A stretch of 64,000 nt of DNA from Pseudohongiella sp. (lineage in GTDB: Bacteria; Pseudomonadota; Gammaproteobacteria; Pseudomonadales; Pseudohongiellaceae), in assembly GCA_030651695.1 (NCBI GenBank), contig JAUSCD010000029.1, forward strand, positions 186,001 to 250,000, in the 5' to 3' direction. This document shows positions 511 through 35,202 of the stretch, piece by piece. Positions within the stretch are counted from its first letter, which is position 1; every line of letters begins with the position of its first letter. A program made the translations under genes and the position numbers. The notes beneath the pieces are model-generated. The model searched no databases. It saw only the letters and a list, made by a program, of their open reading frames with translations, and was not told where the DNA came from.

Positions 511-522
511 GTAGCGGGTTCC

Positions 523-1791: not shown

Positions 1792-1802
1792 TTATAACCT
1801 CC

Positions 1803-8285: not shown

Positions 8286-8375
8286 GAGATGCCTCCCTGG
8301 CTCCAGCCTGGATTCTGGCCCTGGATGATATTATAAGCGGCTTCAACGGCTCCCGTAATGCCGGGGTTGGCTGTA

Positions 8376-10568
8376 CTACTGATGACGCTCGACACGCAGG
8401 CTCTCCAACATCGGTCTTACCGATTCTGTATCCAAAATTGTTAATAAATCACTTGGCATTTTTCGTTGCCAGTTCTTATATTCTGTTGATGTTCCGGGAA
8501 TGTTCACGGGCAGTTTGAGCAGAACCAGATCCTCTAACTGCACCGAAACCAGCATCGCGCCGGATCGCGCAATACAGCGCATCAAAGCAGAAGCCAGCGT
8601 GATGTCCATGTCTTTTTCAAGTTGATCGGGTGCAAAGCGGTCAGCGGGCAGCAGCCATTGCGATTCCAGCAGCTGCAATATCTGCTTCTTTTCAACCTGG
8701 CGGTAATTTAACTGATGTGTCAGCTCGTTGTCATTTTCGATAAGCTGCAGGGAGCGTCGAAGTTGCAGATCGTAACCATTCCACCAGGCTGCCAGCGTAG
8801 GTACATCGTGATTGGCCAGCATGGCGAGGGAGCGTGGTGCATACTGTTGAGGGCTGCGGTACATGTCGGCCGACGCCTTCTCGAAGTAAAACAACAGATT
8901 GGAGTAGATGCCGGACTCATTCAGGTGGCGTCGCACTTCTTGTGGGACGATACCAAGATCTTCTCCGATAACAAGACATTGCTGACGCTGACTTTCCAGT
9001 CTCAGTATTGCAAACAGGTCTTCTGCAGGATACATCACATAGGCGCCTTGTCCGGATGTCTCGTAGGGGCACCACCATAAACGCATCAGCGACATGACAT
9101 GGTCAATTCTCAGTGCGCCGCTGTGTTCCATGTTGCTGCGCAACAGATCAATAAAATGCGCGTAACCTTCCCCACGCAGTTTAACCGGGTTAAGAGGTGG
9201 TAATCCCCAGTTCTGACCTTGCGGTGCCAGCGGATCAGGGGGGGCCCCTATACTGGCTGCGATGCTGAAAACCCCTCGCGATAAACTCACTTCAGCGCCC
9301 TTGCGATCACTCCCCACAGCGAGATCCCTGATCAATCCTACAGACATGCCCAGATCAACAGCCCGTTGCTGGCACGCCTCCAGTTGAGTCTCAGCCAGCC
9401 ATTGCAGGTATATATAAAACTCTACCGAATCTGAATACTCTCCTGCCGTGTTACAGCCTTGTTCTGCCTGCCAGCGTGCGTATTCGTGCAGCGCGGGTCC
9501 TTTTCTGTTTTTAAATTCCTCAAAAGCGGTTTTGCGCTCTGCCTTGCCATTGTTAGTCAATTCGCTAAACATCAATGCCAACACACGAATCTTGAGTTCT
9601 GCAACGCAGGGATAGTCAATCCATTCGCTGGTCCTGACTGTTGTCAGCAGCTCTTCGGCAATCCTGCTGTTGGCAAGCCAGGTGCTGGCCTTGCCCGAAG
9701 TAAACTCTGGCTCCAGTTCCGGTGCAATGTAGAGCGGATTCAGTCTCCTGCGATCAACAGGGCTGTACGGGCTGCAGTATTCAGGTTGATTCAGCGGACC
9801 GGCATGTAAGGGGTTTAAAACCAGATAACTGGCTCCTTGTGCTGCCGATTTCTCTATCAGATTGGAAAGATCAAGAAAGTCACCCATACCCCAGCTGCGT
9901 TCTGTACAAAAACTGTAAAGTTGTACCGAAAAGCCCCATAGTTTTTTTCCGTCAGCGCTCCATGCCGGTTCGTAACAACGTGCGGGAGCCAGAATCAACG
10001 GTATAGTCTGTTCAACGGCCGGACTGCCGCACGCAGTTGCAAGGATGGAGACGGTCAGTTGGTGGTAACCTGCCGGGAGATTGGACAGTGGCAATGGAAG
10101 ACTTATTTGACAATAAACAGCGCCATCAACAAATTCACGTTTTGTTTCTGTCAAAAGTGCAAACGGCATTTTTACAGTACTGGATTGTTGCCCCTCTTCA
10201 CTGGTGGTGTGCCAGCTCAATTGTCCGGTCAACAGGTTTTCGGGGACGTTAAGGTGGATCACATATTCATCAAGATCTGATCTGCGCGTAAATACCACAA
10301 CAGGAGGGAGCAGGCTTGTCTCTCGTGTTTTGTGCAATATTCTCAGTTGCTCATGGATGGCATCTACGTCGATCTGTTGAGTCGTATTGCTGACATCACA
10401 ACCCTGCGCGCTTAGCACTGCTAAAAGGTCTTGCAGTGATATCAGCTCGGTGGCACCCGAGTAATTGGTAAACCGATCCTGTATGCCGCAGGCGGAAAGC
10501 AGCTGTGCAAACAGGCGATTTAATTCTTCTTCAGCTGGTGTCAATGAGGGGCGTCGGGTATCGGTCAT
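8376..10568 (-). CDS. malQ: 4-alpha-glucanotransferase (amylomaltase)
   Basis: This GH77 enzyme (730 residues) disproportionates malto-oligosaccharides, recycling short glucans left by debranching. Conserved segments are LRIDHVMSLMRLWWCP with the nucleophile Asp, EDLGIVPQEVRRHL with the acid Glu, and LANHDVPTLAAWW. A roughly 200-residue N-terminal extension precedes the barrel, as in E. coli MalQ. The frame is open to 10613, but the ATG at 10568 overlaps the glk stop as ATGA, which is the usual coupled start. Its position between glk and glgB links released maltodextrins to glucose phosphorylation. Confidence 0.94.
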   Translation of the reverse strand: MTDTRRPSLTPAEEELNRLFAQLLSACGIQDRFTNYSGATELISLQDLLAVLSAQGCDVSNTTQQIDVDAIHEQLRILHKTRETSLLPPVVVFTRRSDLDEYVIHLNVPENLLTGQLSWHTTSEEGQQSSTVKMPFALLTETKREFVDGAVYCQISLPLPLSNLPAGYHQLTVSILATACGSPAVEQTIPLILAPARCYEPAWSADGKKLWGFSVQLYSFCTERSWGMGDFLDLSNLIEKSAAQGASYLVLNPLHAGPLNQPEYCSPYSPVDRRRLNPLYIAPELEPEFTSGKASTWLANSRIAEELLTTVRTSEWIDYPCVAELKIRVLALMFSELTNNGKAERKTAFEEFKNRKGPALHEYARWQAEQGCNTAGEYSDSVEFYIYLQWLAETQLEACQQRAVDLGMSVGLIRDLAVGSDRKGAEVSLSRGVFSIAASIGAPPDPLAPQGQNWGLPPLNPVKLRGEGYAHFIDLLRSNMEHSGALRIDHVMSLMRLWWCPYETSGQGAYVMYPAEDLFAILRLESQRQQCLVIGEDLGIVPQEVRRHLNESGIYSNLLFYFEKASADMYRSPQQYAPRSLAMLANHDVPTLAAWWNGYDLQLRRSLQLIENDNELTHQLNYRQVEKKQILQLLESQWLLPADRFAPDQLEKDMDITLASALMRCIARSGAMLVSVQLEDLVLLKLPVNIPGTSTEYKNWQRKMPSDLLTILDTESVRPMLESLRVERHQ

Positions 10569-11569
10569 AGATTTTGCCGCTGCCCTGTCATGAAATATGT
10601 ATGGACTGCGCAACCGGCAAGGCCGGGAAATTCATCCAGCACATACGCAACCGGAATAGCTTCGCACCACTGACTAAATGCCGACTTACTGGTAAATGCG
10701 TTCATAAATGCCATTTCATCAAAATTTTTTCCCAGTTTTGCCAGTAACCCGCCGCTAAGCAGGAATCCGCCGCGGCTGCCTTTGGTCAGCGCAATATCCC
10801 CACAGATAGCGCCCATCCAGCGACTGAAAAGCTGCAGCGTCTGGTGCGCTAACCTGTTGCTGTCCGCCATTGCCACAATGTCTGCTGTTGCGGGCGCTTC
10901 AGCCGGCGATAGACGGTTACCTGCCATGCAACTCACTGCACAGAATATATTTGCAATCCCCGGGCCAGAAATCAGGTGTTCAACGGTAACTCGTGGATAC
11001 CAACGCCATAGTTGCTGTAACAACTCGAGATCAGTCTCATCCAGTGGAGAAAACGCGATATGGCCGGGCTCCGCGCTGATCACTTCTCCGCCTGCAGTCA
11101 GACTGGCAGCGCCAAAACCGGTTCCGGGACCGGCAATAGTGCGCAGGGCGTGAGGCCACGAGGAAATTCCGGGCGCTGATGATGCCAGCGTTGCGGGCTT
11201 GTTAATCCAGCGTAGTTTCAGCCTGTTGGGGTCGAGAAGACACCAGGCTTGTGCTTCAAAGTCATTTAATACCATGATGGGCATGCCCAGAGACTGACTT
11301 AATTCTGCCTGACTGAACTGCCAATCATTATTTGTGAAGCGGATTAAATCACCACGCACTGCAGCGGCCACAGCCATACAAAAAAAGCCCGGTAACGGTG
11401 CGCCGGAATTCGCAATAAAGGCCAGATATTGCCTGATTGCATCAATGGGACGCTCAAAATCCGCGCAGCGCATTGCAGTGACGCACTCTAACGGTGCGCC
11501 GTTTTCGGTGCTCAGAGCAAATCGCACATTTGTGCCGCCGATATCGGCAAGCAGTATGCTTGAAGTCAT
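10565..11569 (-). CDS. glk: Glucokinase (E. coli Glk family)
   Basis: The 334-residue protein phosphorylates free glucose with ATP. The N-terminal phosphate-binding signature LADIGGTNVRFAL is at residues 7-19. AEPGHIAF and EHLISGPGI, which carries the Glk-family Glu-His pair, follow in the middle. The C-terminal part contains KGSRGGFLLSGG. No ROK-type CXCGXXGCXE zinc motif is seen, so it belongs to the non-ROK Glk family. It is the fifth gene of the cluster, 38 bases after eda and overlapping malQ by 4 bases. It would feed glucose released by MalQ and GlgX into Zwf. Confidence 0.93.
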   Translation of the reverse strand: MTSSILLADIGGTNVRFALSTENGAPLECVTAMRCADFERPIDAIRQYLAFIANSGAPLPGFFCMAVAAAVRGDLIRFTNNDWQFSQAELSQSLGMPIMVLNDFEAQAWCLLDPNRLKLRWINKPATLASSAPGISSWPHALRTIAGPGTGFGAASLTAGGEVISAEPGHIAFSPLDETDLELLQQLWRWYPRVTVEHLISGPGIANIFCAVSCMAGNRLSPAEAPATADIVAMADSNRLAHQTLQLFSRWMGAICGDIALTKGSRGGFLLSGGLLAKLGKNFDEMAFMNAFTSKSAFSQWCEAIPVAYVLDEFPGLAGCAVHTYFMTGQRQNL

Positions 11570-11607
11570 GCTTCCCCATCCTTATTGTTCTTGTGCTGTT
11601 CTTGCAA

Positions 11608-12243
11608 TCAGCCGGTCGGTGCCAGTTCGGCAAGGCACTGACGTACGGATTGCGTCAATTCTGACCATCGGCCTTTTTTAATTTTCTCTTCCTCAATCAT
11701 CCATGAACCACCCACACAACTGACGTTTCCGAGATCAAAATAGGAGCGTGCGTTGTTGGTGTTGACGCCCCCGGTCGGGCAAAAACTGATCCCGGCAAAT
11801 GGCGACTCAAAGGCTTTCAATAATTTCACACCACCACTGGCTTCTGCCGGGAAAAACTTGAAGAGACGGTGGCCAAGCTCCATTCCCCCCATGATTTCTG
11901 ATGCGGTGCTTACGCCAGGCAGAAAATTCAGGCCCAGTTGTTGTGCACATTCAGAAAGCGACCGGGTCAATCCCGGACTGACCGCAAAGTCCACTCCGGC
12001 TTCTGCCACATTTTCCATATCCCTGGTACTGATGACTGTGCCCGCCGCCACAGTCAGGTCAGGTAAAGTCTGTTTGACTGCTTTAATTGCGGCCAATGCG
12101 GCGGGTGTTCTTAGGGTGATTTCCACCGCGCTCATACCACCGGCCTGCAATGCCCTGCACAGCGCAACGGCCTCCTCTTCCGAGTTGACGATCAGCACTG
12201 GCAGCACACGTGCCAACAATAATTGTTCTTTAAGGAACGTCAT
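11608..12243 (-). CDS. eda: KDPG/KHG aldolase
   Basis: The 211-residue class I aldolase splits 2-keto-3-deoxy-6-phosphogluconate into pyruvate and glyceraldehyde 3-phosphate. VEITLRTPAALAAI holds the catalytic Glu, and FKFFPAEASGG holds the Schiff-base Lys. CPTGGVN binds phosphate near the C-terminal end. The frame extends to a GTG at 12261, but the ATG at 12243 is preferred because GGAG lies 6 bases before it. It starts 42 bases after edd in the same direction, the usual edd-eda pairing of the Entner-Doudoroff pathway. Confidence 0.95.
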   Translation of the reverse strand: MTFLKEQLLLARVLPVLIVNSEEEAVALCRALQAGGMSAVEITLRTPAALAAIKAVKQTLPDLTVAAGTVISTRDMENVAEAGVDFAVSPGLTRSLSECAQQLGLNFLPGVSTASEIMGGMELGHRLFKFFPAEASGGVKLLKAFESPFAGISFCPTGGVNTNNARSYFDLGNVSCVGGSWMIEEEKIKKGRWSELTQSVRQCLAELAPTG

Positions 12244-12285
12244 GAATTTCTCCACCGACACTGTTTTGGCAAGTACAAGCTTGCA

Positions 12286-14103
12286 TCAAAAAACCGAAGC
12301 ACCGCGGTTAGCAGCCCCAACACTGTTACGGAACACCGCAAACAGCTCACGACCAAGACTTCCGGCAAGCAGCCGGTCTCGGTCAGATAACTGTGCGGGT
12401 GGTCGTGCAGCCAACTCTTCATCACTTAAATTTACAGAGAGCTCACCATTTACCATATCCATGGTGATCACATCACCGGAACGCAGACGTGCAATAGCGC
12501 CGTTGTCCAGTGCTTCCGGACATAAATGAATTGCCGCCGGCACTTTGCCGGAGGCGCCAGACATGCGCCCATCAGTGACTAGTGCCACGTTGTATCCCTG
12601 ATCCATCAGCGAACCAAGACAGGGTGTCAACTGATGAAGCTCTGGCATGCCATTGGCTTTGGGGCCTTGAAAACGTATGACCGCAATAAAGTCTTTTGCC
12701 AACTCACCCCGGTCAAATGCCTGCTGCAGTTGCTCCTGTGAATCAAACACCTCGCAGGCTGCAGTAATCTGCCTCAACTCCGGTTTTACCGATGATGTTT
12801 TTACGATACTTTCCCCAAGATTGCCGTGAAGTACGCGTAGTCCGCCTTCGCTGGCGAAAGCGTGTGAGACCGGTCGCAGAACATCGGGTAACAGTGAGTC
12901 TGGTTCTGTTTCATTCCATTCCAGTGTCCCATCCGATGCCAGCATCGGTTCTTTTTGATACGCCTCCATGCCCTCCCCCATTAACGTAACCACATCCTCA
13001 TTCAACAGTCCCGACAGGCGCAGTTCTTTCACCAGAAATGCCATACCGCCTGCTTGCTGAAATGCGTTCACATCGGCTTCGCCATTGGGATAAATACGAG
13101 CCAGCAAAGGCACCACGGCGGATAACTGATCAAGATCATCCCAGCGCATTTCTATGCCGGCTGATTTGGCGATTGCCAATAAATGCAGTGTATGGTTTGT
13201 AGACCCGCCCGTAGCGAGCAACGCCACGGCAGCATTGACCAGTGACGCCTCTGTGACCATGGCAGCGAGTGGACGCAGCCCTGATTTTTCGTCACAGGCC
13301 AGCAGCACACGTCGCACAGTTTCTTGTGTCAATGCCAGCCGCAACGGGTCATCGGGATTTACAAATGAAGCTCCAGGCAACTGAATTCCAAGCATCTCTA
13401 CCATGACCTGATTGCTGTTGGCTGTGCCATAGAAATTACAGGTGCCATGGCTATGATATGAAGCTGATTCAACAGCCAGCAATGCAGATCTGTCTACCAG
13501 ACCTTGTGCATATTGTTGACGTACAGTTGCCTTCTGCTTGTTAGGGATGCCTGACGCCATCGGGCCGGCAGGAATAAAGCCGGTTGGAAGGTGACCGAAT
13601 TTTAATGCGCCAATCAACATTCCGGGAACGATTTTGTCGCATACTCCGAGACACAAAACTCCGTCAAATGTGTTGTGAGAAAGGCTCACTGCAGTTGCCA
13701 TTGCTATCACATCGCGGCTGAACAAACTCAACTCCATTCCCGGCTGACCCTGTGTCACACCATCACACATGGCCGGCACACCACCAGCTACCTGAGCGCT
13801 GCAGTGATGTGACAATGCTATCTTCTTTATGATGTCGGGATACGACTGCAAAGGCTGGTGAGCAGACAGCATATCGTTGAACGAAGTGACAATTCCCAGA
13901 TTGGCTGATGCCATGCCTGCCAGCACTGATTTCTCATGTGCTGAGCAGGCAGCATAACTGTGCGCAAGATTGCCACATGAAAGTGTTTTACGTGGTGGTA
14001 TTTGCCCGCGAGTCAGAATCATCTGATCAAGATAGTCCTGACGCGACTGCATACTGCGCTGGCGAATAGCAGCGGTGACCGATTCGATCGTGCCGTTAAT
14101 CAT
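12286..14103 (-). CDS. edd: 6-phosphogluconate dehydratase
   Basis: The 605-residue IlvD/Edd-family iron-sulfur dehydratase converts 6-phosphogluconate to KDPG. Cluster and active-site segments include VPAMCDGVTQGQPGMELS, LCLGVCDKIVPGML and HGTCNFYGTANSNQ. Near the C-terminus is TDGRMSGASGKVPAAIH. Length is the same as the E. coli enzyme (603). AGGAGG is found 10 bases before the ATG. Two further codons, MI, could shift the start slightly, but the N-terminus aligns well with family members. Confidence 0.96.
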   Translation of the reverse strand: MINGTIESVTAAIRQRSMQSRQDYLDQMILTRGQIPPRKTLSCGNLAHSYAACSAHEKSVLAGMASANLGIVTSFNDMLSAHQPLQSYPDIIKKIALSHHCSAQVAGGVPAMCDGVTQGQPGMELSLFSRDVIAMATAVSLSHNTFDGVLCLGVCDKIVPGMLIGALKFGHLPTGFIPAGPMASGIPNKQKATVRQQYAQGLVDRSALLAVESASYHSHGTCNFYGTANSNQVMVEMLGIQLPGASFVNPDDPLRLALTQETVRRVLLACDEKSGLRPLAAMVTEASLVNAAVALLATGGSTNHTLHLLAIAKSAGIEMRWDDLDQLSAVVPLLARIYPNGEADVNAFQQAGGMAFLVKELRLSGLLNEDVVTLMGEGMEAYQKEPMLASDGTLEWNETEPDSLLPDVLRPVSHAFASEGGLRVLHGNLGESIVKTSSVKPELRQITAACEVFDSQEQLQQAFDRGELAKDFIAVIRFQGPKANGMPELHQLTPCLGSLMDQGYNVALVTDGRMSGASGKVPAAIHLCPEALDNGAIARLRSGDVITMDMVNGELSVNLSDEELAARPPAQLSDRDRLLAGSLGRELFAVFRNSVGAANRGASVF

Positions 14104-14148
14104 AATGCACTGCCTCCTGCAGGAAAATTTTGCACCCCAAAAATATTT

Positions 14149-14847
14149 TCAGGGTGAATAATAAATTTCGGTATCTGCCAGTGCTGACTCCAGCACGGCT
14201 TTCACCGGCATTTTTGCAATAGGTCCGGGTTCCAGTGCTTTTAATAATGTCTGTTTTTTTGACATGCCTTGTATGTGCAGAATACGACACCGGGCATTTA
14301 ATAAAGTTCTGAGCGTCAATGTCATGCGGGTATAGGGCATTCCTGTCACCCGAATGCCACAACAGATCGCGGTGTCGTCAACATCAAGTGCTTGTGCCAA
14401 TCCCTCAGCATCGGGGAAAAGCGATGCAGTATGACCATCAGTGCCCATTCCGAGTAATACAATATCCAAAGGCAGAATGCTGTTCTCCAAAAGATGATTG
14501 ACTTTTTTCTGCGCAACAAATGCATCCGCTTCATTTATTTTCATGGTCACCAGACGCGATGTTGATGCATAGTTTTTAAGCAGGTTGCGCCGCACCATTG
14601 CGGCATTTGAGTCTGGATGGTTTTCATCTACCCATCGCTCGTCGACCAGACTGATGACGACTTGCGCCCAAGGTAGATCTATCAGAGACAGCGCGTTAAA
14701 TAACGGGCCCGGGGTACTTCCACCTGAAACCGCCAGAGACGCATGCCCCTGCTGCTGAATGGCACATTCAAGTCGTGAGGCTATTGTCATGCTGAGTTCA
14801 TCAACAAGCGCCTGTGGCGTAGCAAACTCTCTGTTGATCAAAGCCAT
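14149..14847 (-). CDS. pgl: 6-phosphogluconolactonase
   Basis: The 232-residue protein hydrolyses 6-phosphogluconolactone made by Zwf. The family signatures ASLAVSGGSTPGPLF near residue 37 and GMGTDGHTASLFPD in the middle are present. The frame is open further upstream to 14886, but the ATG at 14847 starts the conserved N-terminus (MALINREF), follows the zwf stop by 7 bases and has AGGA upstream. The pgl-edd gap is 45 bases. It belongs to the short DevB-type family, not the YbhE beta-propeller type. Confidence 0.94.
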   Translation of the reverse strand: MALINREFATPQALVDELSMTIASRLECAIQQQGHASLAVSGGSTPGPLFNALSLIDLPWAQVVISLVDERWVDENHPDSNAAMVRRNLLKNYASTSRLVTMKINEADAFVAQKKVNHLLENSILPLDIVLLGMGTDGHTASLFPDAEGLAQALDVDDTAICCGIRVTGMPYTRMTLTLRTLLNARCRILHIQGMSKKQTLLKALEPGPIAKMPVKAVLESALADTEIYYSP

Positions 14848-27315: not shown

Positions 27316-27355
27316 GGTGAGAGATGGGCATCGCGGGTAGTAGATTCTTAAAATG
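27316..27355 (+). repeat. 40-bp direct repeat, copy 1
   Basis: This 40-base stretch (begins ggtgagagatgggcat and ends ttcttaaaatg) recurs at 27520-27559 with three mismatches, 204 bases apart. Copy 2 ends inside the att core of the integrated element, so the repeat is the sequence that normally follows the tRNA-Ser 3' end. Copy 1 suggests an older duplication of that flank. Confidence 0.9.
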
Positions 27356-27519: not shown

Positions 27520-27559
27520 GGTGAGAGATGGGCATTGCAGGTGGTAGATTCTTAAAATG
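27520..27559 (+). repeat. 40-bp direct repeat, copy 2
   Basis: This is the partner of the copy at 27316-27355 (37 of 40 identical). Its last bases are the first bases of the left attachment core, which makes it the original chromosomal sequence immediately downstream of the tRNA-Ser gene before integration. Confidence 0.9.
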
Positions 27560-27571
27560 GCGGAGGGAGAG
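27558..27571 (+). other. attL: left attachment core
   Basis: The 14-base sequence tggcggagggagag is identical to 35113-35126, the 3' end of the tRNA-Ser gene including the encoded CCA. Beyond these 14 bases the two copies diverge. It marks the left boundary of the integrated element. Confidence 0.88.
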
Positions 27572-27694
27572 GCCGCCAAATACCTCTGTAACATATTGAA
27601 TAGAAACATGTTTATTTAAAAAAGCCGCGTCATTGCTGGCCCCTGCCCCGTACACTTGTATCATCTTGCATCATGCTGTATCGTCCAATAATAT

Positions 27695-27708
27695 ATTTTA
27701 TGTTGGGC
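27695..27708 (+). promoter_or_regulatory. 14-bp motif shared by int and terS upstream regions
   Basis: The sequence attttatgttgggc lies 20 bases before the integrase start. Its exact reverse complement is at 32189-32202 before the small terminase gene. The identical match in two upstream regions of the same element suggests an operator or other protein-binding site. Confidence 0.55.
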
Positions 27709-27728
27709 GGGATGATGGAGCGAGAACG

Positions 27729-28994
27729 ATGCCAAAGAAAGCAAGAGAGCTAACAGCGACCGAATTGCGCAGGATCACTAAGCCCGGACTATTTGCAGTT
27801 GGTGGCGTCGCTGGGCTGCTATTCAGGGTAACAGACACCGGGTCACAATCGTGGATTTTGCGCACGATGGTCGGCACAAAACGGCGCGATATAGGTTTAG
27901 GCGGGTTCCCTGATGTAACACTGGCACAAGCCCGCGACAAAGCCCGTGAACTGAAAGAAAAGATCACGCAGGGCATTGATCCGGTGGAGGAACGCAAAGC
28001 CGCCAGACGATCCTTAATAGCCTCGCAACTATCTTCAATCACGTTTGAACAGGCCGCTGCCGAATTTATCCGCATGAAGGAGCGGGAATTCCGCAACCCG
28101 CGAAACTCAGAGCAATGGACAAGCACTCTACTGGCTTATGCTATGCCGCATATCGGCAAGGTGCCAGTGCATGAGCTTCAGTTGTCCCATATTAAATCTG
28201 TACTTGATCCAATCTGGGAGACAAAGACAGAAACGGCCAAGCGAATACAGGGCAGATTAGAAAATATTCTGGGCTGGTGTGCTATCCACGGATACCGGAG
28301 CGAAGAAAACCCTGCACGATGGAAAGGCTATCTCGATAAGGTCTACCCTGCCCCCAGCAAAACCCGCAAACGTAACCACCATGCAGCGCTAGAGTTAAAC
28401 GCCATGCCTGAATTTATGGGCAAGCTGAGAACACGCGCCGGAGCAGCGGCTAGAGCGCTGGAGTTCCTAATTCTGACCGCCAGCCGCACCAATGAGGTAA
28501 TTGGCGATAAGCGTATAGGCAAGGCAGGTATTACATGGCCGGAAATCGACTTTGAGAAAAGAATCTGGAGCGTACCAGCCGAGCGCATGAAATCCGGCAA
28601 GGATCATAAAGTCCCGTTGACGGAACGCGCTATTGAACTGCTGAAAGCCCAGAAAGAGAGCAGCAAAGGGAGCCTTGTTTTCGCTAACCCCGATGGTGGA
28701 ATCCCGTCCAATAATTTTCTGACGTCTGTTCTAAAGCGCATGGATATTGATGTTACCGCGCATGGATTCAGATCCACTTTCAAGGATTGGGCCAGAGAAT
28801 GCACCGCCTATGCTGATGAAGTTTCAGAGCTTGCCCTTGCGCACGTAAACAGTGACGAAACCAGAGCCGCCTACGCCAGATCCGAGCTAATGGATAAACG
28901 CCGCCTGATGATGGCCGATTGGGAGCATTACTGTTACCACGGACGCCCAGAGAAGGCCAGTAACGTGGTATCTATCGGGGGTGCTAAATCGTGA
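27729..28994 (+). CDS. int: Tyrosine recombinase/integrase, P4 type
   Basis: The 421-residue integrase has an N-terminal DUF4102 arm-binding domain (ELTATELRRITKPG, GLLFRVTDTGS, IGLGGFPDVTLAQAR), a SAM-like core and a catalytic domain. The catalytic residues Arg253 (TASRTNEV), His345 and Arg348 (HGFRSTFKDWA) and Tyr382 (AAYARSEL) are all present, so it should be active. The frame is open to 27633, but ATG at 27729 has GGAG 8 bases upstream and starts the family N-terminus. It lies 157 bases inside attL, pointing into the element, at the end distal to the intact tRNA. The downstream gene starts in its stop codon. Confidence 0.95.
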   Translation: MPKKARELTATELRRITKPGLFAVGGVAGLLFRVTDTGSQSWILRTMVGTKRRDIGLGGFPDVTLAQARDKARELKEKITQGIDPVEERKAARRSLIASQLSSITFEQAAAEFIRMKEREFRNPRNSEQWTSTLLAYAMPHIGKVPVHELQLSHIKSVLDPIWETKTETAKRIQGRLENILGWCAIHGYRSEENPARWKGYLDKVYPAPSKTRKRNHHAALELNAMPEFMGKLRTRAGAAARALEFLILTASRTNEVIGDKRIGKAGITWPEIDFEKRIWSVPAERMKSGKDHKVPLTERAIELLKAQKESSKGSLVFANPDGGIPSNNFLTSVLKRMDIDVTAHGFRSTFKDWARECTAYADEVSELALAHVNSDETRAAYARSELMDKRRLMMADWEHYCYHGRPEKASNVVSIGGAKS

Positions 28995-29578
28995 ACAGAA
29001 TCGAAGAAATAGATCACCTCCGAATGCTTTTTCGACAGTCAAACGCTGAAGAAACTATGGTGATTGTGAAAACGATCCGAGACAAGGCAATAAGCTACCT
29101 TGATCCAATTAAAGCGAAGGTGCCGCGAGCTATATCAGAACGCGCCGTGAAGAAGTATCAAGATATGGGAGTCAGTCTTGAATGGGATTTAACTGACTGC
29201 GAATCTGTCTTTGAGTTTGCGGTACAGTCACGATCAGTTGAGATTTCACCGCTGGAACGTAAAGCTGTCGAATTACTGCGCGCTAGCTCTGATGTGATAC
29301 GACTCGGAATCCTCACTGAACGCGGATGCGACTGGCTACTCAGTACATACGCACAGCTTGATACTCCTGCAATCCAGAAAGCTGAAAAATTCGCGCCGGG
29401 CAGACCGAAGGGTTCAAAGTCTGAAATCACAAAGTACATTTGCGAACTGAAAAGGCAGTATCCCGATGTTCAAGCTAAGGTTCTTTTTGCTAAAGCAGAC
29501 AAAGAAAAGCTAGCTGGCATGCCACTTAAAAGGTTTCAGAATCGGCTAAGTGAATGCAAAAAAGGACGGCATGAATAA
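28991..29578 (+). CDS. Hypothetical protein coupled to the integrase
   Basis: The 195-residue frame starts with GTG overlapping the integrase stop (GTGA), so it is translationally coupled to int. It is charged and mostly helical, with no membrane segment or signal peptide. A Gly-Arg-Pro-Lys-Gly-Ser run (APGRPKGSKSEITKYI) near residue 137 resembles an AT-hook-like or basic DNA-contacting stretch followed by a helical C-terminal region (KRFQNRLSECKKG). I do not recognise a family. Its coupling to int suggests a role in recombination or its control, which is inference. Confidence 0.72.
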   Translation: MNRIEEIDHLRMLFRQSNAEETMVIVKTIRDKAISYLDPIKAKVPRAISERAVKKYQDMGVSLEWDLTDCESVFEFAVQSRSVEISPLERKAVELLRASSDVIRLGILTERGCDWLLSTYAQLDTPAIQKAEKFAPGRPKGSKSEITKYICELKRQYPDVQAKVLFAKADKEKLAGMPLKRFQNRLSECKKGRHE

Positions 29579-29668
29579 AGGCAAAGCACCTTTGAAAAGT
29601 TACTTTCCCGGTTTAGCGTTAACGGGATTTTTATTAGTTAGCACTGGCCTAGATATGTGAAGAAATAG

Positions 29669-29698
29669 GTGTCGTATCAACTCATATACGGACGACAC
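29669..29698. promoter_or_regulatory. Operator-like inverted repeat upstream of alpA-like gene
   Basis: The 7-bp perfect inverted repeat gtgtcgt...acgacac, with an inner cgtat...atacg pair, ends 5 bases before the start codon of the AlpA-like gene. Its position suits autoregulation by that protein or by a helper-phage activator. Confidence 0.55.
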
Positions 29699-29703
29699 TA
29701 ACT

Positions 29704-29907
29704 ATGATTATCGATAACGTTCCTCAAAAACCCCTGCCCCGTGTCTGGGCTTCAGACTCCCAACTAGCTGAAATATTTTCTGTCACTCGTGCGACTATCT
29801 GGAGGTGGTCGGCTTCTGGGCGATTGCCAAAGCCAGTCAGACTTTCACCGGGCTGCACACGTTGGAAGATTGCAGATATTGCGCAGCTACAGGAGGGAGT
29901 AGCATGA
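29704..29907 (+). CDS. AlpA-like helix-turn-helix regulator
   Basis: The 67-residue protein has the AlpA/excisionase winged-helix layout: ASDSQLAEIFSVTRATIWRW as the helix-turn-helix, then SGRLPKPVRLSPGCTRWK as the wing, ending in ADIAQLQ. In P4-like and other satellites, AlpA proteins activate the integrase or excision and act as the switch. It follows an inverted repeat and precedes a run of overlapping replication genes, so it probably is the first gene of the regulated operon. The next gene starts in its stop codon (ATGA). Confidence 0.85.
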   Translation: MIIDNVPQKPLPRVWASDSQLAEIFSVTRATIWRWSASGRLPKPVRLSPGCTRWKIADIAQLQEGVA

Positions 29908-30215
29908 CTCAAGCCCCGACCACCGGCGAAGTGGATCGGAGCGCAGAGCTTAAAACCTTTCAGCGGCCCGATTATACCAACATCGCAGATGTGCTACGCC
30001 ACGCGATACAAATCACCATTGCCCACAACGGCAACCGTCTACCGCTGATGACTGTTCAGCGTTTGATGGATGCACAAGGGTTTGATCGTGAGTCAGTAAT
30101 TGATGCTCTGAATTATCTGACCCGCCGGAATGACATTAAATTGGTCATTGAACTGGACGCAAGCAAAAAACCATTCAAGACGACTCAAATAATTGTTTGC
30201 GGGGGTGCCGTATGA
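29904..30215 (+). CDS. Small hypothetical protein, possible winged helix
   Basis: The 103-residue protein starts at an ATG overlapping the alpA-like stop, with AGGAGGG upstream (29891-29897). Residues 25-80 (ADVLRHAIQITIAHNGNRLPLMT and following) read as three helices and a short beta pair, a winged-helix-like pattern. The upstream open frame to 29805 is a shadow of alpA. No known family is recognised. Being the second gene of the replication cassette, it may help load or control replication, which is inference. Confidence 0.72.
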   Translation: MTQAPTTGEVDRSAELKTFQRPDYTNIADVLRHAIQITIAHNGNRLPLMTVQRLMDAQGFDRESVIDALNYLTRRNDIKLVIELDASKKPFKTTQIIVCGGAV

Positions 30216-30442
30216 GCCTACGCCGAGCAATTAACGACAAGTGCAAAACCTGCATTTATGACCCCTATTCCGGCACCGGAACATGGCGACAGCAAACAGC
30301 CGCTTGCACCTCGTTTAAGTGTCCTCTTTACCCTGTCCGGCCAATGCCGACCGATAACACTACCGGCGAGCTAATCGCGCTTACAGAGTCAGAAAACGGC
30401 CAATTTGATGCCACTGCTAACAGTTGCGAGGTGCAACCATGA
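30212..30442 (+). CDS. Small Cys4 zinc-binding-like phage protein
   Basis: The 76-residue protein carries Cys11, Cys14, Cys32 and Cys37 (CKTCIYDP, GTWRQQTAACTSFKCPLYP), a likely zinc ribbon. Similar short proteins with the CxxCIYDP...GTWRQQ...CPLYPVRP pattern occur in tailed phages and prophages near replication or recombination genes. Their role is not established. It starts with ATG overlapping the previous stop and ends overlapping the next start, so it is part of the coupled cassette. Confidence 0.78.
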   Translation: MSLRRAINDKCKTCIYDPYSGTGTWRQQTAACTSFKCPLYPVRPMPTDNTTGELIALTESENGQFDATANSCEVQP

Positions 30443-30858
30443 GCGCTGACAAATTATTAGCACGATTGGACAAGGTAAAGCAGAACGGCACAGACCGCTG
30501 GCTTGCATGTTGCCCCGCACACGTTGACAGAAGCCCGTCACTGACAATCAAGCAAACGGATGACGGCACAGTGCTGGTGAAGTGCTGGAGCGGGTGCGGA
30601 GCTGCTGACATTGTTCAGGCCGTTGGTTTGTCACTCAAAGATTTATTTCCAGACAGGCCGCACTTCCGCACACCTATGCGCCCCGGCGAACGATGGGTGC
30701 CACGTGATGTTATTGCAGCGCTGGCGCATGAGTTGCTCACCAGCGTGATGTATTGCTCTGCAATGGCTGCTGGCAAACAGTTGACCCAGGACGACTCTGA
30801 GCGCCTCACGCTGGCCGCAAGCCGCTTGTATGCCGCATGGCTGGAGGTATCAAAGTGA
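30439..30858 (+). CDS. Primase-type zinc-binding (CHC2-like) protein
   Basis: The 139-residue protein shows the N-terminal zinc domain of phage primases: Cys24-Cys25-Pro-Ala-His28, then SPSLTIKQTDDGTVLVKCWSGCGA with Cys49 and Cys53, then IVQAVGLSLKDLFP. In P4/T7-type primase-helicases this domain recognises the primer start site. Here it is encoded separately from the ATPase that follows, and no TOPRIM catalytic domain is visible, so primer synthesis may depend on the host or helper. ATG overlaps the upstream stop. The remaining C-terminal half is helical. Confidence 0.82.
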   Translation: MSADKLLARLDKVKQNGTDRWLACCPAHVDRSPSLTIKQTDDGTVLVKCWSGCGAADIVQAVGLSLKDLFPDRPHFRTPMRPGERWVPRDVIAALAHELLTSVMYCSAMAAGKQLTQDDSERLTLAASRLYAAWLEVSK

Positions 30859-31862
30859 CCGGCGCTGACTTTCTCGATGATCTTTATAGAACTGGCGCAC
30901 CTCAACCGCCGCCAGATCCTTTCAACTGGTTAGAGGATTTTACCGTGACAACAGCCGAGGCCGAACGATTTGCAGATCCTGACTGGATTGTGCCGGGTTT
31001 GATAGTACAAGGACACCTTCACATCATTGCAGCAGAACCAAACGGAGGGAAAACGACTGTGTTTTTCTATCTTGCTGGGTGCATGGTGCAAGCTGGTTTT
31101 AATGTGATTTACGTCAATGCTGATATTTCAGCCGGTGACGCAAAGTCGATGGTACAGCAGGCAAATCAGACGGGTGTAAAACTGCTATTGCCTGAGATGA
31201 AAGCTGGTAAATCAATGGATGACATTGTGAGGAACTTGGTAACGCTGAATGACAGTGGTGCAGATCTGGGCCGTTACATTTTCATTTTCGATACCTTAAA
31301 GAAAATGACAGACGTGATTAACAAGAGCGCATCCAAGCGACTGCTAAAGCTGTTACGCAGCATGACCGCAAAGGGCGCGACAGTTATCTGTCTGGCACAC
31401 ACCAACAAGTACAACGGGCAGGACGGCAAACCGATCTATGAGGGCACTGGCGACATAAAGTCAGACGTCGATAACCTGATCTATTTGATTCCCGACAAGC
31501 GCCCAGACGGATCTATGCTCGTTTCAGCAGAGCCAGACAAGCAACGCGCAGCACTGGAAAAAGTCACCTTTGAAATTAGCCCGCAACGCAAAGTAAAACG
31601 GCTTGATGAGTACCACGACATAGCCGCTGAGAAGCAACGCATGACCCAGCGTGAGCGCGATCAGGACATTATCGAGCGCATTACCGAAGCGATACAGGCC
31701 AAGCACATCAAACAGTCTGACATCGTTTCCTACTGCAAAGAGGCCGACATTTCCAGACGCCAGACGTTGAATTGCTTGAAGCGTTATGAAAATGGATCAG
31801 GCCGTTTATGGAAAGCAACGCCGGGTTTTGAAAAGAATGCGAGGTTCTATGAATTGGCATAA
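30855..31862 (+). CDS. RecA-like AAA ATPase, probable replicative helicase (RepA-type)
   Basis: The 335-residue protein has a RecA-fold ATPase core: Walker A AEPNGGKTT at residues 60-68 with Lys66, Walker B IFIFDT with Asp146, and CLAHTNKY as the sensor-like segment. It resembles the hexameric RepA-like helicases of plasmids and phages. The C-terminal region (KHIKQSDIVSYCKEADI) looks like a helix-turn-helix. The GTG start overlaps the previous stop (GTGA) and has GGAGG 7 bases upstream. An ATG at 30837 is in frame but less likely. Together with the zinc protein it forms a minimal replication module. Confidence 0.85.
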   Translation: MTGADFLDDLYRTGAPQPPPDPFNWLEDFTVTTAEAERFADPDWIVPGLIVQGHLHIIAAEPNGGKTTVFFYLAGCMVQAGFNVIYVNADISAGDAKSMVQQANQTGVKLLLPEMKAGKSMDDIVRNLVTLNDSGADLGRYIFIFDTLKKMTDVINKSASKRLLKLLRSMTAKGATVICLAHTNKYNGQDGKPIYEGTGDIKSDVDNLIYLIPDKRPDGSMLVSAEPDKQRAALEKVTFEISPQRKVKRLDEYHDIAAEKQRMTQRERDQDIIERITEAIQAKHIKQSDIVSYCKEADISRRQTLNCLKRYENGSGRLWKATPGFEKNARFYELA

Positions 31863-31876
31863 AAAGCACTCCCCCC

Positions 31877-32005
31877 GGATAACTGGGATTTTTGGGACAA
31901 CTGAAACAGAAAAGAGCGATTTTGATGTATCTGGAATGGCTGAAACCCGCGTCACTGTTGAGTTGTACCAGTTATTCCACTTATCCCACTTATCCCAGTT
32001 GTCTC
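31877..32005. repeat. Iteron-like repeat region, candidate replication origin
   Basis: The gap of 374 bases (31863-32236) behind the helicase holds repeats of ggataa/gggaca-type units. On the plus strand ggataactggga and gggacaactg lie at 31877-31903, and the opposite orientation ttattccacttatcccactt and tatcccagttgtc lie at 31970-32003. Inverted clusters of a repeated 8-10-base unit beside a replication helicase are typical of origins. The remaining sequence to 32236 is AT rich and holds the shared 14-bp motif at 32189-32202. It carries no convincing gene. Confidence 0.55.
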
Positions 32006-32188
32006 GTTTTACCGGGGAGTACCAGTATTGATAGTTCTGGAACTTCCAACTAACTAACCGGCTGCAAATCTGCCCGCGAAGATCAACCATAAAGCCAGTT
32101 AGTATTTCACTATAACCGCCATAAAATAGAATAAACCTTTTATAAATTAAGGCTTATAGATACAATTAGACCTGTAAACCATCAATAT

Positions 32189-32202
32189 GCCCAACATAAA
32201 AT
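32189..32202 (-). promoter_or_regulatory. Inverted copy of the int-upstream 14-bp motif before terS
   Basis: gcccaacataaaat is the exact reverse complement of 27695-27708. It lies about 35 bases before the small-terminase start in an AT-rich stretch, so it probably belongs to a second promoter region controlling the packaging genes. Confidence 0.55.
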
Positions 32203-32236
32203 CAGGTTTACGGCACAGAATTCAGATATTCAGGTA

Positions 32237-32773
32237 ATGGAACGCTCTTTTTTAATGCCAGAGAAAGCCACCAAACACTATCAACAGCGAGTCAGAAAAG
32301 TGTCCCGACAAGGTTATAAAGGTTTTACCCCAGCAGGTAAAAAGATCGGCAGACCAATTAAGCGCCCCCCTGCCAATGCCGTGGATGTTGTCCGCGATCT
32401 GGCCGGTGAAGGTCATGCACTGATTGGAATCGCTCGCGTATTGGGCACCAGTGCGGACACCTTGCGCCGATGGTTTGATGAGGATGAAGAACTCAAAGCC
32501 GCACTTGATGAAGGCCGGGAGAAAGAGCGCTATTCCCTGCACAATGTTCTATATAAGGCCGCTACCGAACAATCGAACACAACCGCTGCCATGTTCCTGC
32601 TGAAGTCCCGCCACGGCTATAGAGAAGGCGATTCGAGCGAAACGGCCAACCGCGTATCAATCAATTTTACCCTTCCCGGCGCTATGCCTCTGAATGACTT
32701 TGTTCAAGCTGAGTCAGTCCGGGATCTATCCATCCAGACAATACCCACAACCAGAGGTAACAACCATGAGTAA
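32237..32773 (+). CDS. terS: Small terminase subunit-like DNA-binding protein
   Basis: The 178-residue protein has a basic N-terminus with GRPIKRPPANAV, then a helix-turn-helix (GHALIGIARVLGTSADTLRRWFDEDEELKAAL in two pieces) and helices KERYSLHNVLYKAA, TTAAMFLLKSRHGYREG. This arrangement is typical of small terminase subunits, which recognise the packaging site and present DNA to the large subunit. ATG at 32237 and 32255 are both possible. It is the first gene of the packaging block and ends overlapping the next gene. Confidence 0.78.
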   Translation: MERSFLMPEKATKHYQQRVRKVSRQGYKGFTPAGKKIGRPIKRPPANAVDVVRDLAGEGHALIGIARVLGTSADTLRRWFDEDEELKAALDEGREKERYSLHNVLYKAATEQSNTTAAMFLLKSRHGYREGDSSETANRVSINFTLPGAMPLNDFVQAESVRDLSIQTIPTTRGNNHE

Positions 32774-33488
32774 TGCGGCCCTACTTTTAAACGGCAGTAA
32801 TCCACTTCGCAAAGCAAAAGATGACTTTGAACTGAGTATCACGCCGACCAAGCTGGAAGCAAAAGCCGGATTCCCTTCCATGATCGAAGGTCTGACCACT
32901 GAGGCGCAGTCCCTGAAGCGTTTTGCAGAAAGCACCAAAGACCTGATGAAAACCATCGGTGACACGCACTTCAGAGTCCATGCGGATCTAACCCTTACGG
33001 ACGGTGCCAAGCTGGTGCGAAGCGCTAACCATGCAGAGGGCAAGATTAAAGCCGCCCGTGATGAATTCATGCGCATGGCTGACCAAACCGGCGAAACGCT
33101 GACCCGGCTATCTGCTGAGATGAAAACGGCAATCAATCCGCCCACATCTATGGGTGAAGCGCTCGTTGAACAAGAGTTGAGAGCATGGGCGAAGCAGCAG
33201 GAAGTGGGAACACTGGCCCTAAGAGCGCGTGAAGATCCGGCACTTCTGGCAGCGATTGCCCGCGCCCCTGCTGTACTGTCTGGCATTGACCCGCAGACAC
33301 ACGCCACATTGCAGGCCGAGCAGATGAAAGCGCTATTCCCTGACGTCTACGCCAGAGCGCAAGATCTTAAACAGGCGTTTGATACTGCCAATCAAGCATT
33401 GGGTTCGGTCGAAAGCGTGGCAAAAGGTCTGATCGACTTTGATACAGCGAGAGAGTTGGACAGTCGAAAAGTGTCCGCCGTTCTCTAA
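32766..33488 (+). CDS. Hypothetical helical protein between terminase genes
   Basis: The 240-residue protein is almost entirely helical and charged, with coiled-coil-like stretches (EAQSLKRFAESTKDLMKTI, GKIKAARDEFMRMADQTGE, RAQDLKQAFDTANQAL). No signal or membrane segment is seen. ATG at 32766 overlaps the terS end by 8 bases and has AGAGGT 8 bases upstream. Its place between the terminase genes, where phages often keep scaffold or portal-associated genes, suggests a packaging or capsid-interaction role, for example a remodeller of helper capsids. No family is recognised, so this is inference. Confidence 0.72.
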   Translation: MSNAALLLNGSNPLRKAKDDFELSITPTKLEAKAGFPSMIEGLTTEAQSLKRFAESTKDLMKTIGDTHFRVHADLTLTDGAKLVRSANHAEGKIKAARDEFMRMADQTGETLTRLSAEMKTAINPPTSMGEALVEQELRAWAKQQEVGTLALRAREDPALLAAIARAPAVLSGIDPQTHATLQAEQMKALFPDVYARAQDLKQAFDTANQALGSVESVAKGLIDFDTARELDSRKVSAVL

Positions 33489-33501
33489 AGAAGGGCCTTT
33501 T

Positions 33502-33528
33502 AGGGTCACTACGGTGGCCCTCTTTTTT
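33502..33528 (+). terminator. Rho-independent terminator before terL
   Basis: The 8-bp stem agggtcac/gtggccct (one G-T pair) with a tacg loop is followed by cttttttg. It lies between the helical protein gene and terL and may give partial termination, since terL has no clear promoter of its own in the 8 bases that remain. Confidence 0.8.
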
Positions 33529-33536
33529 GAGGTTTT

Positions 33537-34907
33537 ATGAATATCGAGCTTTCAGACTTCCAGCAAAACGCCATGATGGTGCCAGAGGAAATTGATTTAT
33601 TCCTGGGGGGTGGCCGTGGAGGTGGCAAGTCGTGGGCACTGGCATTGCTGGCGCTAAGGCATGTTGAACAGTATGGCGCAAAGGCGCGTATTTTGTACGT
33701 TCGCAAAACATACAAAGGGCTGGCAGATTTTGAGCTGGTCACGCGTGATCTATTCGCCAAAGTCTACGGAACGGCTGCACGATATAACGCTTCTGAGCAT
33801 TGCTGGAGGTTCCCGAATGGAGCCTATCTGGAGCTTGGACAGCTAGAGAGCCATGCCGACTATGCCAAATATCAAGGCAGATCCTTCACGCTGCAAATGG
33901 CTGATGAGGTCGGACAATATGCCTCCCCTGATCTGCTGGACGTTCTACGGTCAAACCTACGCGCCCCAGAGGGTATTCCCGTTCGCGTGGTGCTGGCTGC
34001 AAACCCCGGTGGGCCGGGACACCACTGGATTGCAAAGCGTTATGTTTTTCAGTCTGGGCCGTGGAAACCGTTTTTTGAGTCCAAGTCTAAACGCCAGTGG
34101 ATCTATGCCCCGTCAACGTATACCGGCAACCGATTTATTGACCGTGAAGGCTATCGGGATCAACTGGAATCGTCTTGCCCTAATGACCCCGAATTGCTCA
34201 GAGCGTGGATTGAAGGCGATTGGGCTGTAAACCGTGGCGCGTACTTTGCCAGTGTGCTGGAAGAAAGCCGCAACGCCGTGGAGCCGTGGCAGCAGATCCC
34301 GCAGTGTTATGGCCGCAAGTGGGACACCTATCTAGCGCATGATTTTGGATCAAGCGCCCCTTCTGTCACTTATGTTGTCGCTGTAAGTCCCGGTGATACC
34401 ATCGAGGGCCGCTACTTTGCGCGGGACAGTCTAATCCTGCTGGACGAACTAGCAACTGCCAAGCGAGACAGGCCAAACGAGGGTTTAGGCTGGACAGTGC
34501 CCATACTCAGCGAAGAAATAATATCAATGTGCCAGCGCTGGGGAATCAGACCTGATGGTGTGGCCGATGACGCCATATTCAGCAGGACAGGAAGCGGAGC
34601 CGGATCTATTGCTGATGAATTCAACCGGGCTGGCGTCTACTTTCAACCTGCCCGCAAAGCCGACCGGATCGGTGGCTGGAATGTCATGCGCCGACTACTG
34701 GCTGATGCTGGCAACCCTGATGTGCCGGGTATGTATATTGCCCGCACCTGCAATTACTTCTGGGAAACAGTGCCCTACTTAGGCCGCGACGAAAAACGTG
34801 TTGAAGATGTTGATACTCACGGGCCAGACCATGCCGCTGATGCTGCACGATATGCCTGCCAGCGTGTGAGACACACGGCTACTCAGATAAAACTGGGCGG
34901 GTTCTGA
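33537..34907 (+). CDS. terL: Phage terminase large subunit
   Basis: The 456-residue protein has a full ATPase and nuclease layout. Walker A GGGRGGGKS is at residues 24-32, and Walker B MADE at 121-124 has Glu124 as the catalytic base. The RNase H-like nuclease shows Asp269 (AHDFGSSAPS), an acidic VADDAIF segment near 341 and Asp431 (GPDHAADAARY). Length is normal for terminase_6-type large subunits and no truncation is visible. It would package DNA into preformed heads, and yet no head gene exists in the element. GAGG lies just before the ATG. Confidence 0.93.
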   Translation: MNIELSDFQQNAMMVPEEIDLFLGGGRGGGKSWALALLALRHVEQYGAKARILYVRKTYKGLADFELVTRDLFAKVYGTAARYNASEHCWRFPNGAYLELGQLESHADYAKYQGRSFTLQMADEVGQYASPDLLDVLRSNLRAPEGIPVRVVLAANPGGPGHHWIAKRYVFQSGPWKPFFESKSKRQWIYAPSTYTGNRFIDREGYRDQLESSCPNDPELLRAWIEGDWAVNRGAYFASVLEESRNAVEPWQQIPQCYGRKWDTYLAHDFGSSAPSVTYVVAVSPGDTIEGRYFARDSLILLDELATAKRDRPNEGLGWTVPILSEEIISMCQRWGIRPDGVADDAIFSRTGSGAGSIADEFNRAGVYFQPARKADRIGGWNVMRRLLADAGNPDVPGMYIARTCNYFWETVPYLGRDEKRVEDVDTHGPDHAADAARYACQRVRHTATQIKLGGF

Positions 34908-34981
34908 TAAACAAAAGTGGGCGCAAGCTGGTGGCATGGTCTATAACAAGGGCATGAGCCAGCAGGAAGCAACCGCCGGTC

Positions 34982-35011
34982 AACCCGTCTGAAGTCTAGG
35001 CGGGTTTTTTT
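34982..35011 (+). terminator. Rho-independent terminator after terL
   Basis: The stem aacccgtct/aggcgggtt (one G-T pair) is followed by ttttttt. It ends the packaging transcript. Confidence 0.85.
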
Positions 35012-35030
35012 GCAGACCCCAGAAACACGA

Positions 35031-35062
35031 AAACCCAGCATTTTATCTATGTTGGGTTTTTT
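35031..35062. terminator. Second terminator near the right end of the element
   Basis: The 11-bp stem aaacccagcat/atgttgggttt (one G-T pair) with runs of A before and T after can work on both strands. It would insulate the element from tRNA-Ser readthrough. Its right arm resembles the 14-bp motif seen before int and terS. Confidence 0.8.
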
Positions 35063-35112
35063 GTTGGTCAAATTATTTTTTATTCGCTAAGTTGTTGATT
35101 TATAACGGATAG

Positions 35113-35126
35113 TGGCGGAGGGAGAG
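35113..35126 (+). other. attR: right attachment core inside tRNA-Ser
   Basis: tggcggagggagag is identical to 27558-27571 and lies within the acceptor stem, discriminator and CCA of the tRNA. The body of the tRNA is to the right, so this copy keeps the gene functional after integration. Confidence 0.88.
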
Positions 35127-35202
35127 AGATTCGAACTCTCGGAGGGCTTTCACCCTCGCCGGTTTTCAAGACCGGTGCATTCAACCGCTCTGCCATCCCT
35201 CC
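35113..35202 (-). tRNA. serT: tRNA-Ser (anticodon UGA)
   Basis: The 90-base gene on the minus strand has a GGAGGGA/TCCCTCC acceptor stem, discriminator G and encoded CCA. The anticodon loop CTTGAAA gives UGA and reads UCA/UCG-type codons. A long variable arm (GAGGGTGAAAGCCCTC) proves the Ser class, and the T-arm is GAGAGTTCGAATCTCTC. It stands beside yccA as in E. coli and Pseudomonas. It is the integration target of the satellite. Confidence 0.97.

Follow-up and report, generated by a model that had tools for sequence, protein, structure and literature searches.

A small integrative element of Pseudohongiella with its own replication genes and both terminase subunits as a candidate phage satellite

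A phage satellite has been defined as a non-phage mobile element that encodes functions or signals favouring its packaging into phage particles (PMC11389934). Described satellites other than the capsid-forming ones rely on packaging proteins encoded by a helper (PMC12409344), and those of the capsid-forming family cf-PICI package their DNA with their own proteins, the terminase included (PMC10690885, PMC12409344). Here we describe an element of 7,555 bp in Pseudohongiella sp. (GenBank assembly GCA_030651695.1), located in a stretch of 64,000 nucleotides of contig JAUSCD010000029.1 (positions 186,001 to 250,000, here called the window; coordinates without a locus or contig label refer to it). 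The element carries replication genes and genes for both the small (TerS) and the large (TerL) terminase subunit, and in scans of its ten open reading frames (ORFs) with Pfam and PHROGs none matched a family of capsid, portal, protease, tail or lysis proteins. We consider it probable that the element is a self-replicating, integrative phage satellite, one that fills the shells of a helper with its own TerS-TerL motor.

The element spans positions 27558-35112, plus one copy of a 14-bp repeat, and its target is the 3' end of a tRNA-Ser(TGA) gene. The gene order is integrase, orf195, AlpA-like gene, two small ORFs, zinc protein, ATPase, a non-coding gap, TerS, orf240 and TerL, and all ten ORFs are open. 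The features are as follows, with lengths in amino acids (aa).

27558..27571, + strand: left attachment (att) core, 14 bp, copy of the tRNA-Ser 3' end and exact duplicate of 35113-35126
27729..28994, + strand: P4-type tyrosine integrase, 421 aa (PF22022, PF13356, PF00589; phrog_1, E 1e-40)
28991..29578, + strand: orf195, overlapping the integrase gene by 4 nt (GTGA); no Pfam or PHROGs match; iolg-like by position only
29704..29907, + strand: AlpA-like excisionase/regulator, 67 aa (phrog_66, E 6e-8; PF05930, E 5e-4, slightly under cut-off)
29904..30215, + strand: orf103, with a weak winged-helix match (PF00392, E 0.004, under cut-off)
30212..30442, + strand: orf76, small cysteine-containing protein, described from its sequence; no Pfam or PHROGs family above cut-off
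30439..30858, + strand: CHC2-type zinc protein, primase N-terminal part (phrog_6088, E 3e-16; PF01807, E 9e-5, under cut-off)
30837..31862, + strand: RecA-like ATPase, AAA_25 (PF13481, E 4e-12)
31878..32003, no strand: two 9-bp iteron arrays in inverted orientation, a candidate origin of replication (arms 31878-31906 and 31975-32003; lag-9 repeat p 0.005)
32237..32773, + strand: TerS, 178 aa (phrog_309, E 8e-15; Pfam GP3_package, E 8e-4, under cut-off)
32766..33488, + strand: orf240, orphan flanked by terS and terL; nothing significant in Pfam, PHROGs, phages or plasmids
33502..33521, + strand: terminator-like hairpin 5' of terL (hairpin scan)
33537..34907, + strand: TerL, 456 aa (PF03237 and PF04466 above cut-off; phrog_2, E 1.5e-24)
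34982..35006, + strand: terminator-like hairpin 3' of terL (hairpin scan)
35113..35126, + strand: right att core, within the tRNA-Ser 3' end
35113..35202, - strand: tRNA-Ser (TGA), the integration target (tRNA call)

The 14-mer TGGCGGAGGGAGAG occurs in exactly two copies in the whole 64-kb window, at 27558 and 35113 on the same strand. Fourteen congener loci were fetched for comparison of the tRNA-Ser site. Five of them (L042, L043, L044, L045, L047) contain an empty site, where the left flank leads into the tRNA-Ser end and the 14-mer is present in a single copy, and the ends of the element are therefore exact. One further locus (L046) stops at a contig edge, and in the remaining eight the tRNA end and flank have diverged and this 14-mer is absent. 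The tRNA-Ser(TGA) stretch was matched in 15 of 15 genus genomes, the window's own counted; the gene adjoining it is BAX-inhibitor-like. Two other elements at the same site (L085, L107) showed no capsid family in their scanned ORFs, among the matches listed. The GC content of the element is 50.5%, compared with 51.2% for the window. In the host flank we also observed a 40-nt repeat (27316-27355 and 27520-27559) and sequences like the tRNA-Ser 3' end; related repeats are present at other places in the genome. In five congener loci (L047, L048, L049, L050, L052) 13-mers from the tRNA end appear a second time, about 190-390 bp to the left of the tRNA.

A sequence-only reading of the window had described most of these parts: the att duplication in tRNA-Ser, an intact P4-type integrase, an AlpA-like gene, a cassette of primase zinc protein and RecA-like ATPase, both terminase genes, and no structural or lysis genes. 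The repeat comparison and the family scans agree with it on each of these. For the AlpA-like protein the assignment is by PHROG, as the Pfam models AlpA and HTH_17 both stayed under cut-off. The integrase catalytic residues (R, H..R, H, Y) were read by eye from the sequence with general motif rules, as were the Walker B acidic pair and nuclease aspartates of TerL; its Walker A (GGRGGGKS) was found by pattern search as well. Of the two terminators in that reading, the placement is good but proves nothing, because the scan found 8 terminator-like sites compared with a mean of 8.9 in shuffled sequences. Two items are additions to its gene list, namely the 240-aa orphan between terS and terL and the 4-nt overlap of orf195 with the integrase gene.

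The layout recurs in two unrelated bacteria, which strengthens the initial observation. In Aliidiomarina indica SW123 (L111), a 46-bp exact att repeat bounds 9.0 kb with the order integrase, orf178, AlpA-like gene, primase-ATPase of 744 aa, orf118, TerL of 466 aa, orf261 and orf99. In Polynucleobacter sp. UK-Gri1-W3 (L088), a 51-bp exact att repeat bounds 11.1 kb with the order integrase, ATPase of 749 aa, orf209 and TerL of 430 aa, followed by genes of phrog_8741 (which we take to be Sel1-containing), an exonuclease and a homing-endonuclease family. No head, portal or tail family was found in the scanned ORFs of either element, some short ORFs lying outside the scan. In ten phage records the gene following TerL was annotated as portal in five, as hypothetical in four and was not shown in one; in none of the three elements was a portal recognised. 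Of the sequence-only proposal, the full terminase without capsid genes is well supported and satellite status is probable; redirection of helper packaging is a putative step. Loading of the DNA into the shells of other viruses is probable because two unrelated bacteria hold similarly built elements.

The TerL proteins of the three elements are not close to one another. By blastp, the window TerL matched neither that of L111 nor that of L088 at E 1, whereas each of the three matches phage proteins at E 1e-32 or better. The identity of the window TerL to the nearest phage TerLs is about 33%; its single relative among viral contigs is L005 (31%), and the L088 and L111 TerLs, used as single-protein queries, had no relative there. 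In a tree of 17 TerLs, the window sequence is grouped with phages HTVC103P, Pam5, ctLpZ231 and PAKlein3 among others, that of L111 with Synechococcus phage S-CBS4, and that of L088 with Klebsiella, Pantoea and Yersinia phages. The starred branches force three changes, and the three elements' TerLs were grouped together in 0% of 200 bootstrap trees (a long-branch warning applies to L106 and L138). Since the three TerLs fall in three phage clades, they were likely captured independently. A single ancestral deletion is therefore hard to fit, and three separate losses, each sparing an open terL and exact att ends, seem less likely than separate gains or replacements. The suggestion of an undescribed family calls for other wording: the backbone to which the element belongs is a broad set of small elements, and TerL looks like an addition to it that was gained from different phages on more than one occasion.

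This backbone, here called the chassis, was surveyed through relatives of the ATPase, which were found at 62 loci in genome contigs and in 11 viral contigs. With its own genome counted in each case, the ATPase was present in 11 of 293 order genomes, and its profile was present in 3 of 369 genomes of a class sample at E 1e-15 and in 12 of 390 genomes of an order sample at E 1e-10; the window ATPase as a single-protein query had no relative among viral contigs. In L087 and L094 a relative of the zinc protein lies next to the ATPase. With iterative profiles, integrases and AlpA-like genes were labelled across 74 loci, and in 43 of these an integrase is located upstream in the same orientation. 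Removal of 8 loci with less than 3 kb downstream and exclusion by hand of L077, L078 and L153 left 32, in 11 of which the integrase gene shares 1-14 bases with the ORF that follows it. The contig of L077 also has, at 6456-8875, tail-chaperone-like (phrog_25000) and tail-lysin-like genes.

In the 32 loci we searched for the longest exact repeat of at least 14 bp between the 700 bp preceding the integrase and the 9 kb that follow the ATPase gene. One repeat copy lies at a tRNA or tmRNA gene in 18 loci, with bounded sizes of 5,968-14,145 bp and a median of 8,678 bp (no shuffle control), and 5 of these (L085, L093, L095, L099, L107) depend on repeats of only 14-16 bp. Nine loci have no repeat, and five (L086, L094, L114, L117, L130) have a repeat and no accepted tRNA; the 45-bp repeat of L086 is tRNA-like in appearance, and the A-rich repeat of L117 was set aside. 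Because 18 of the 32 loci have such repeats, a small att-bounded element appears often to be the home of the chassis.

The RecA-like ATPase is likely the replicative helicase, and the 260 bp 3' of its stop codon were compared with dinucleotide shuffles in 70 stretches, 69 of them from other loci and one from the window (some of the loci are near-copies, and they do not count as independent). Repeats spaced by 9 bp were detected in 38 of the 70 (p ≤ 0.01), compared with 12 at a lag of 8 and 0-3 at lags of 6, 7 and 10-13. A second run of the lag-9 test gave 37 of 70, and the control stretches 2/55, 1/50, 1/48 and 1/60. Inverted arms were found in 43 of the 70 stretches at p ≤ 0.025 and in none of 50 in the single control set. 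Such arrays are common to satellites and viral contigs. As the iterons adjoin the replication gene both in elements with differing packaging genes and in viral contigs, they are better candidates for a replication origin than for a packaging site.

Packaging genes of other kinds also occur on the chassis. TerS was seen with no TerL in the L078 contig (read as L056), in L153 and in L143 (PF03592), and the pooled scan found small-terminase families in two members each, among the matches listed, which mutual similarity places in L113 and L115. A major-head/protease gene (phrog_617) with no terminase seen is located in L096 (11348-13189). Two further phrog_617 members (second pool, among the matches listed) correspond by similarity to L099 (8435-10075) and L129 (5886-7613), again with no terminase seen; the former lies inside a stretch of 8.5 kb bounded by a 14-bp repeat, the latter inside 8.8 kb bounded by a 51-bp repeat. 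These single-head-gene loci are the converse of the TerL-bearing ones. The contig L143 (IMG/VR 3300007276_008771) is 7,436 bp long and has a terminal repeat of 103 bp, which marks it as circular or concatemeric; its genes include those for TerS, an integrase and an AlpA-like protein. A weak C-terminal likeness to phrog_458 (a "protease" of epsilon15-like phages) was noted in L143 (4753-5352, E 0.02), L153 (10729-11340 on the - strand, E 0.004) and L107 (5879-6514, E 0.005), and these proteins could be mimics in capsid assembly.

The orphan orf240, which we infer to be a packaging or capsid accessory, has one relative, at the contig end of L061 (48% over 133 aa). Its alignment found no relative in viral contigs, orf240 itself had none in phages, and neither it nor orf261 of L111 had one in plasmids; orf261 as a single-protein query had none in viral contigs. 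Matches of orf240 in L020 and L021 were dropped as chance, the ORFs there looking like sensor kinases. Kinship of orf240 and orf261 is not claimed: hhalign gave a probability of 0.9% (E 0.064), and a local alignment that beat 299 of 300 shuffles pairs regions different from those of hhalign.

The life cycle that we infer, comprising excision, use of the origin, docking, packaging and the identity of a helper, would proceed as follows. Upon infection or induction of a helper, AlpA would turn on integrase-driven excision, and the zinc protein and ATPase would copy the excised circle, starting at the inverted iterons that follow the ATPase gene. TerS would recognise a site on the element, and the element's own TerL, with TerS, would dock on the portal of helper-made procapsids and pump in satellite DNA. 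The helper would provide the head, portal, tail and lysis functions. The host genome contains a P2-like prophage region on contig C21 at about 121-131 kb (L179, C21:121001-141000, about 81-10335), some 82 kb from the element, the left end of which lies beyond the fetched stretch. With a portal (phrog_68), TerL (phrog_5751), TerS (phrog_74) and head (phrog_70), it is a possible resident helper. In a sequence search of the host genome the element TerL matched itself alone; both TerLs match the broad family phrog_2. A second integrase region lies at ssrA on contig C7 (L180, C7:18001-38000, about 5434-14700), with a P4-type integrase, major-head (phrog_10, E 7e-44) and tape-measure (phrog_2854, E 1e-41) genes and a weak 12-bp repeat of the tmRNA end at 14543; four further ORFs scanned there had no family match.

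Several observations weigh against a satellite with its own motor. The reading is drawn from sequence. The P2-like prophage has its own, different terminase. No close relative of the whole element was found; its TerL is present in 3 of 194 genomes, its own counted, with at most 33% identity. The TerS genes of L111 and L088 are assigned by position only, and the phage rows of the TerL tree are the nearest relatives of each TerL, a choice that favours scatter. The ATPase is not specific to satellites, as L106 has a TerL in a phage-like contig, and among the 34 pooled viral-contig ORFs TerL families match three members and a portal family two, among the matches listed and unassigned to loci. The att search reached about 15 kb (9 kb past the ATPase gene), longer elements are invisible to it, and 14 of the 32 loci are undelimited. 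The first ORF pool had 181 members listed, of which 86 and 34 were scanned and 61, mostly judged host genes by position or sequence, left out; of the 127 in the second, 115 were scanned and 12 judged host genes left out. For these pools the 25 most frequent PHROG families were listed with the matching member unnamed, and single matches may hide; absence of a family from the pooled scans is therefore weak evidence.

The first of the alternatives, which we regard as unlikely, is a relic prophage whose structural genes, once located between terL and attR, have disappeared. In its favour, a phage cut short behind terL would have this gene order (integrase, regulators, replication, terS, terL), relatives of the ATPase are present in phage-like contigs, and the nearest TerL relatives are phage proteins. 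However, the ten ORFs are open and the att ends exact, the layout recurs twice with TerLs of other clades, and repeats delimit 18 of the 32 related loci to at most 14.1 kb, larger ones being possible among the other 14, given the reach of the search. The sequence-only reading had named relatives with the same att ends and capsid genes between them as the case against it; what we found at this site were the five empty congener loci and the elements L085 and L107, with no capsid family in their scanned ORFs among the matches listed. It is also improbable, in our view, that a helper motor packages the satellite while its own TerS-TerL blocks or cuts helper DNA or is passenger cargo. This would be in line with the use of helper packaging proteins by described satellites that do not form capsids (PMC12409344) and with the cargo-like genes adjoining the L088 TerL, but in all three elements, as in phages, a small ORF holds the TerS position before terL (with a family match in the window only), and the pattern search recovered Walker A in the TerLs of the window and of L111; it missed that of L088, where GRRAGKS was read by eye. 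That the element moves otherwise, by generalised transduction or conjugation, with a terminase of no present role, is highly improbable: many related loci have no assigned packaging gene, among the matches listed, yet the chassis carries TerS, TerL or major-head genes time and again, and a circular or concatemeric relative is present in a viral collection.

Beyond the probable satellite itself, we speculate, more tentatively and with some doubt, that a single chassis able to replicate itself (integrase-AlpA-primase/ATPase with inverted 9-bp iterons) has repeatedly acquired individual parts for phage assembly, be it TerS, a TerS-TerL motor or a major-head gene. The motor form would swap the motor on the helper procapsid, so that takeover would occur at the motor and not at DNA choice or capsid size. 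An element with a whole motor and without a head would make it possible to test if a foreign portal can be driven by a TerL, and would suggest that satellites are built from captured phage parts. Surveys that treat TerL without capsid as a broken prophage would overlook such elements.

Of features that bear on the definition of a satellite, the element shows att bounds, empty congener sites and genes for TerS and TerL, and its packaging in phage particles is predicted. P4-like satellites likewise have a P4-type integrase, an alpA-type gene and their own replication, and are defined by Sid/Psu/Delta-type genes and the alpha primase-helicase; these had no match in general Pfam and PHROGs scans of the element, which included no P4-specific model. 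P4 differs further in being packaged by the P2 terminase and in encoding Sid (as cited in PMC10690885). A VEIME is recognised by its DNA within virions. Among marine integrative elements, VEIMEs and tycheposons have been linked to virus particles (as cited in PMC10803314). In the literature searched, no satellite was found that has TerS and TerL and is without a capsid, the primary VEIME and tycheposon papers and most subscription papers being outside the scope of that literature. PICMI of Vibrionaceae resemble the element in being small, in having an integrase, alpA, a replication gene of their own and a gene that shares a few nucleotides with int, and in their lack of capsid genes; the overlapping gene, iolg, is required for excision (PMC10803314). 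They are inserted next to fis and have a DUF3987/DUF5906 primase, and in their type element no terS, sid or ppi homologue was found (PMC10803314). Our element shares the integrase and AlpA feature and differs in its tRNA-Ser site, CHC2-like protein, AAA_25 ATPase and TerS with TerL; the PICMI fis site is absent, and the PICMI primase had no match in it at E 0.1. The Streptomyces satellites Mulch and Flayer carry both terminase subunits, as here, together with a portal and major capsid gene, and are described as without known primase homologues (PMC10690885). cf-PICI encode major capsid, protease and portal proteins (PMC10690885, PMC12409344), none of which was recognised in the element's ten ORFs; what the element has in common with them is a TerS and a TerL of its own.

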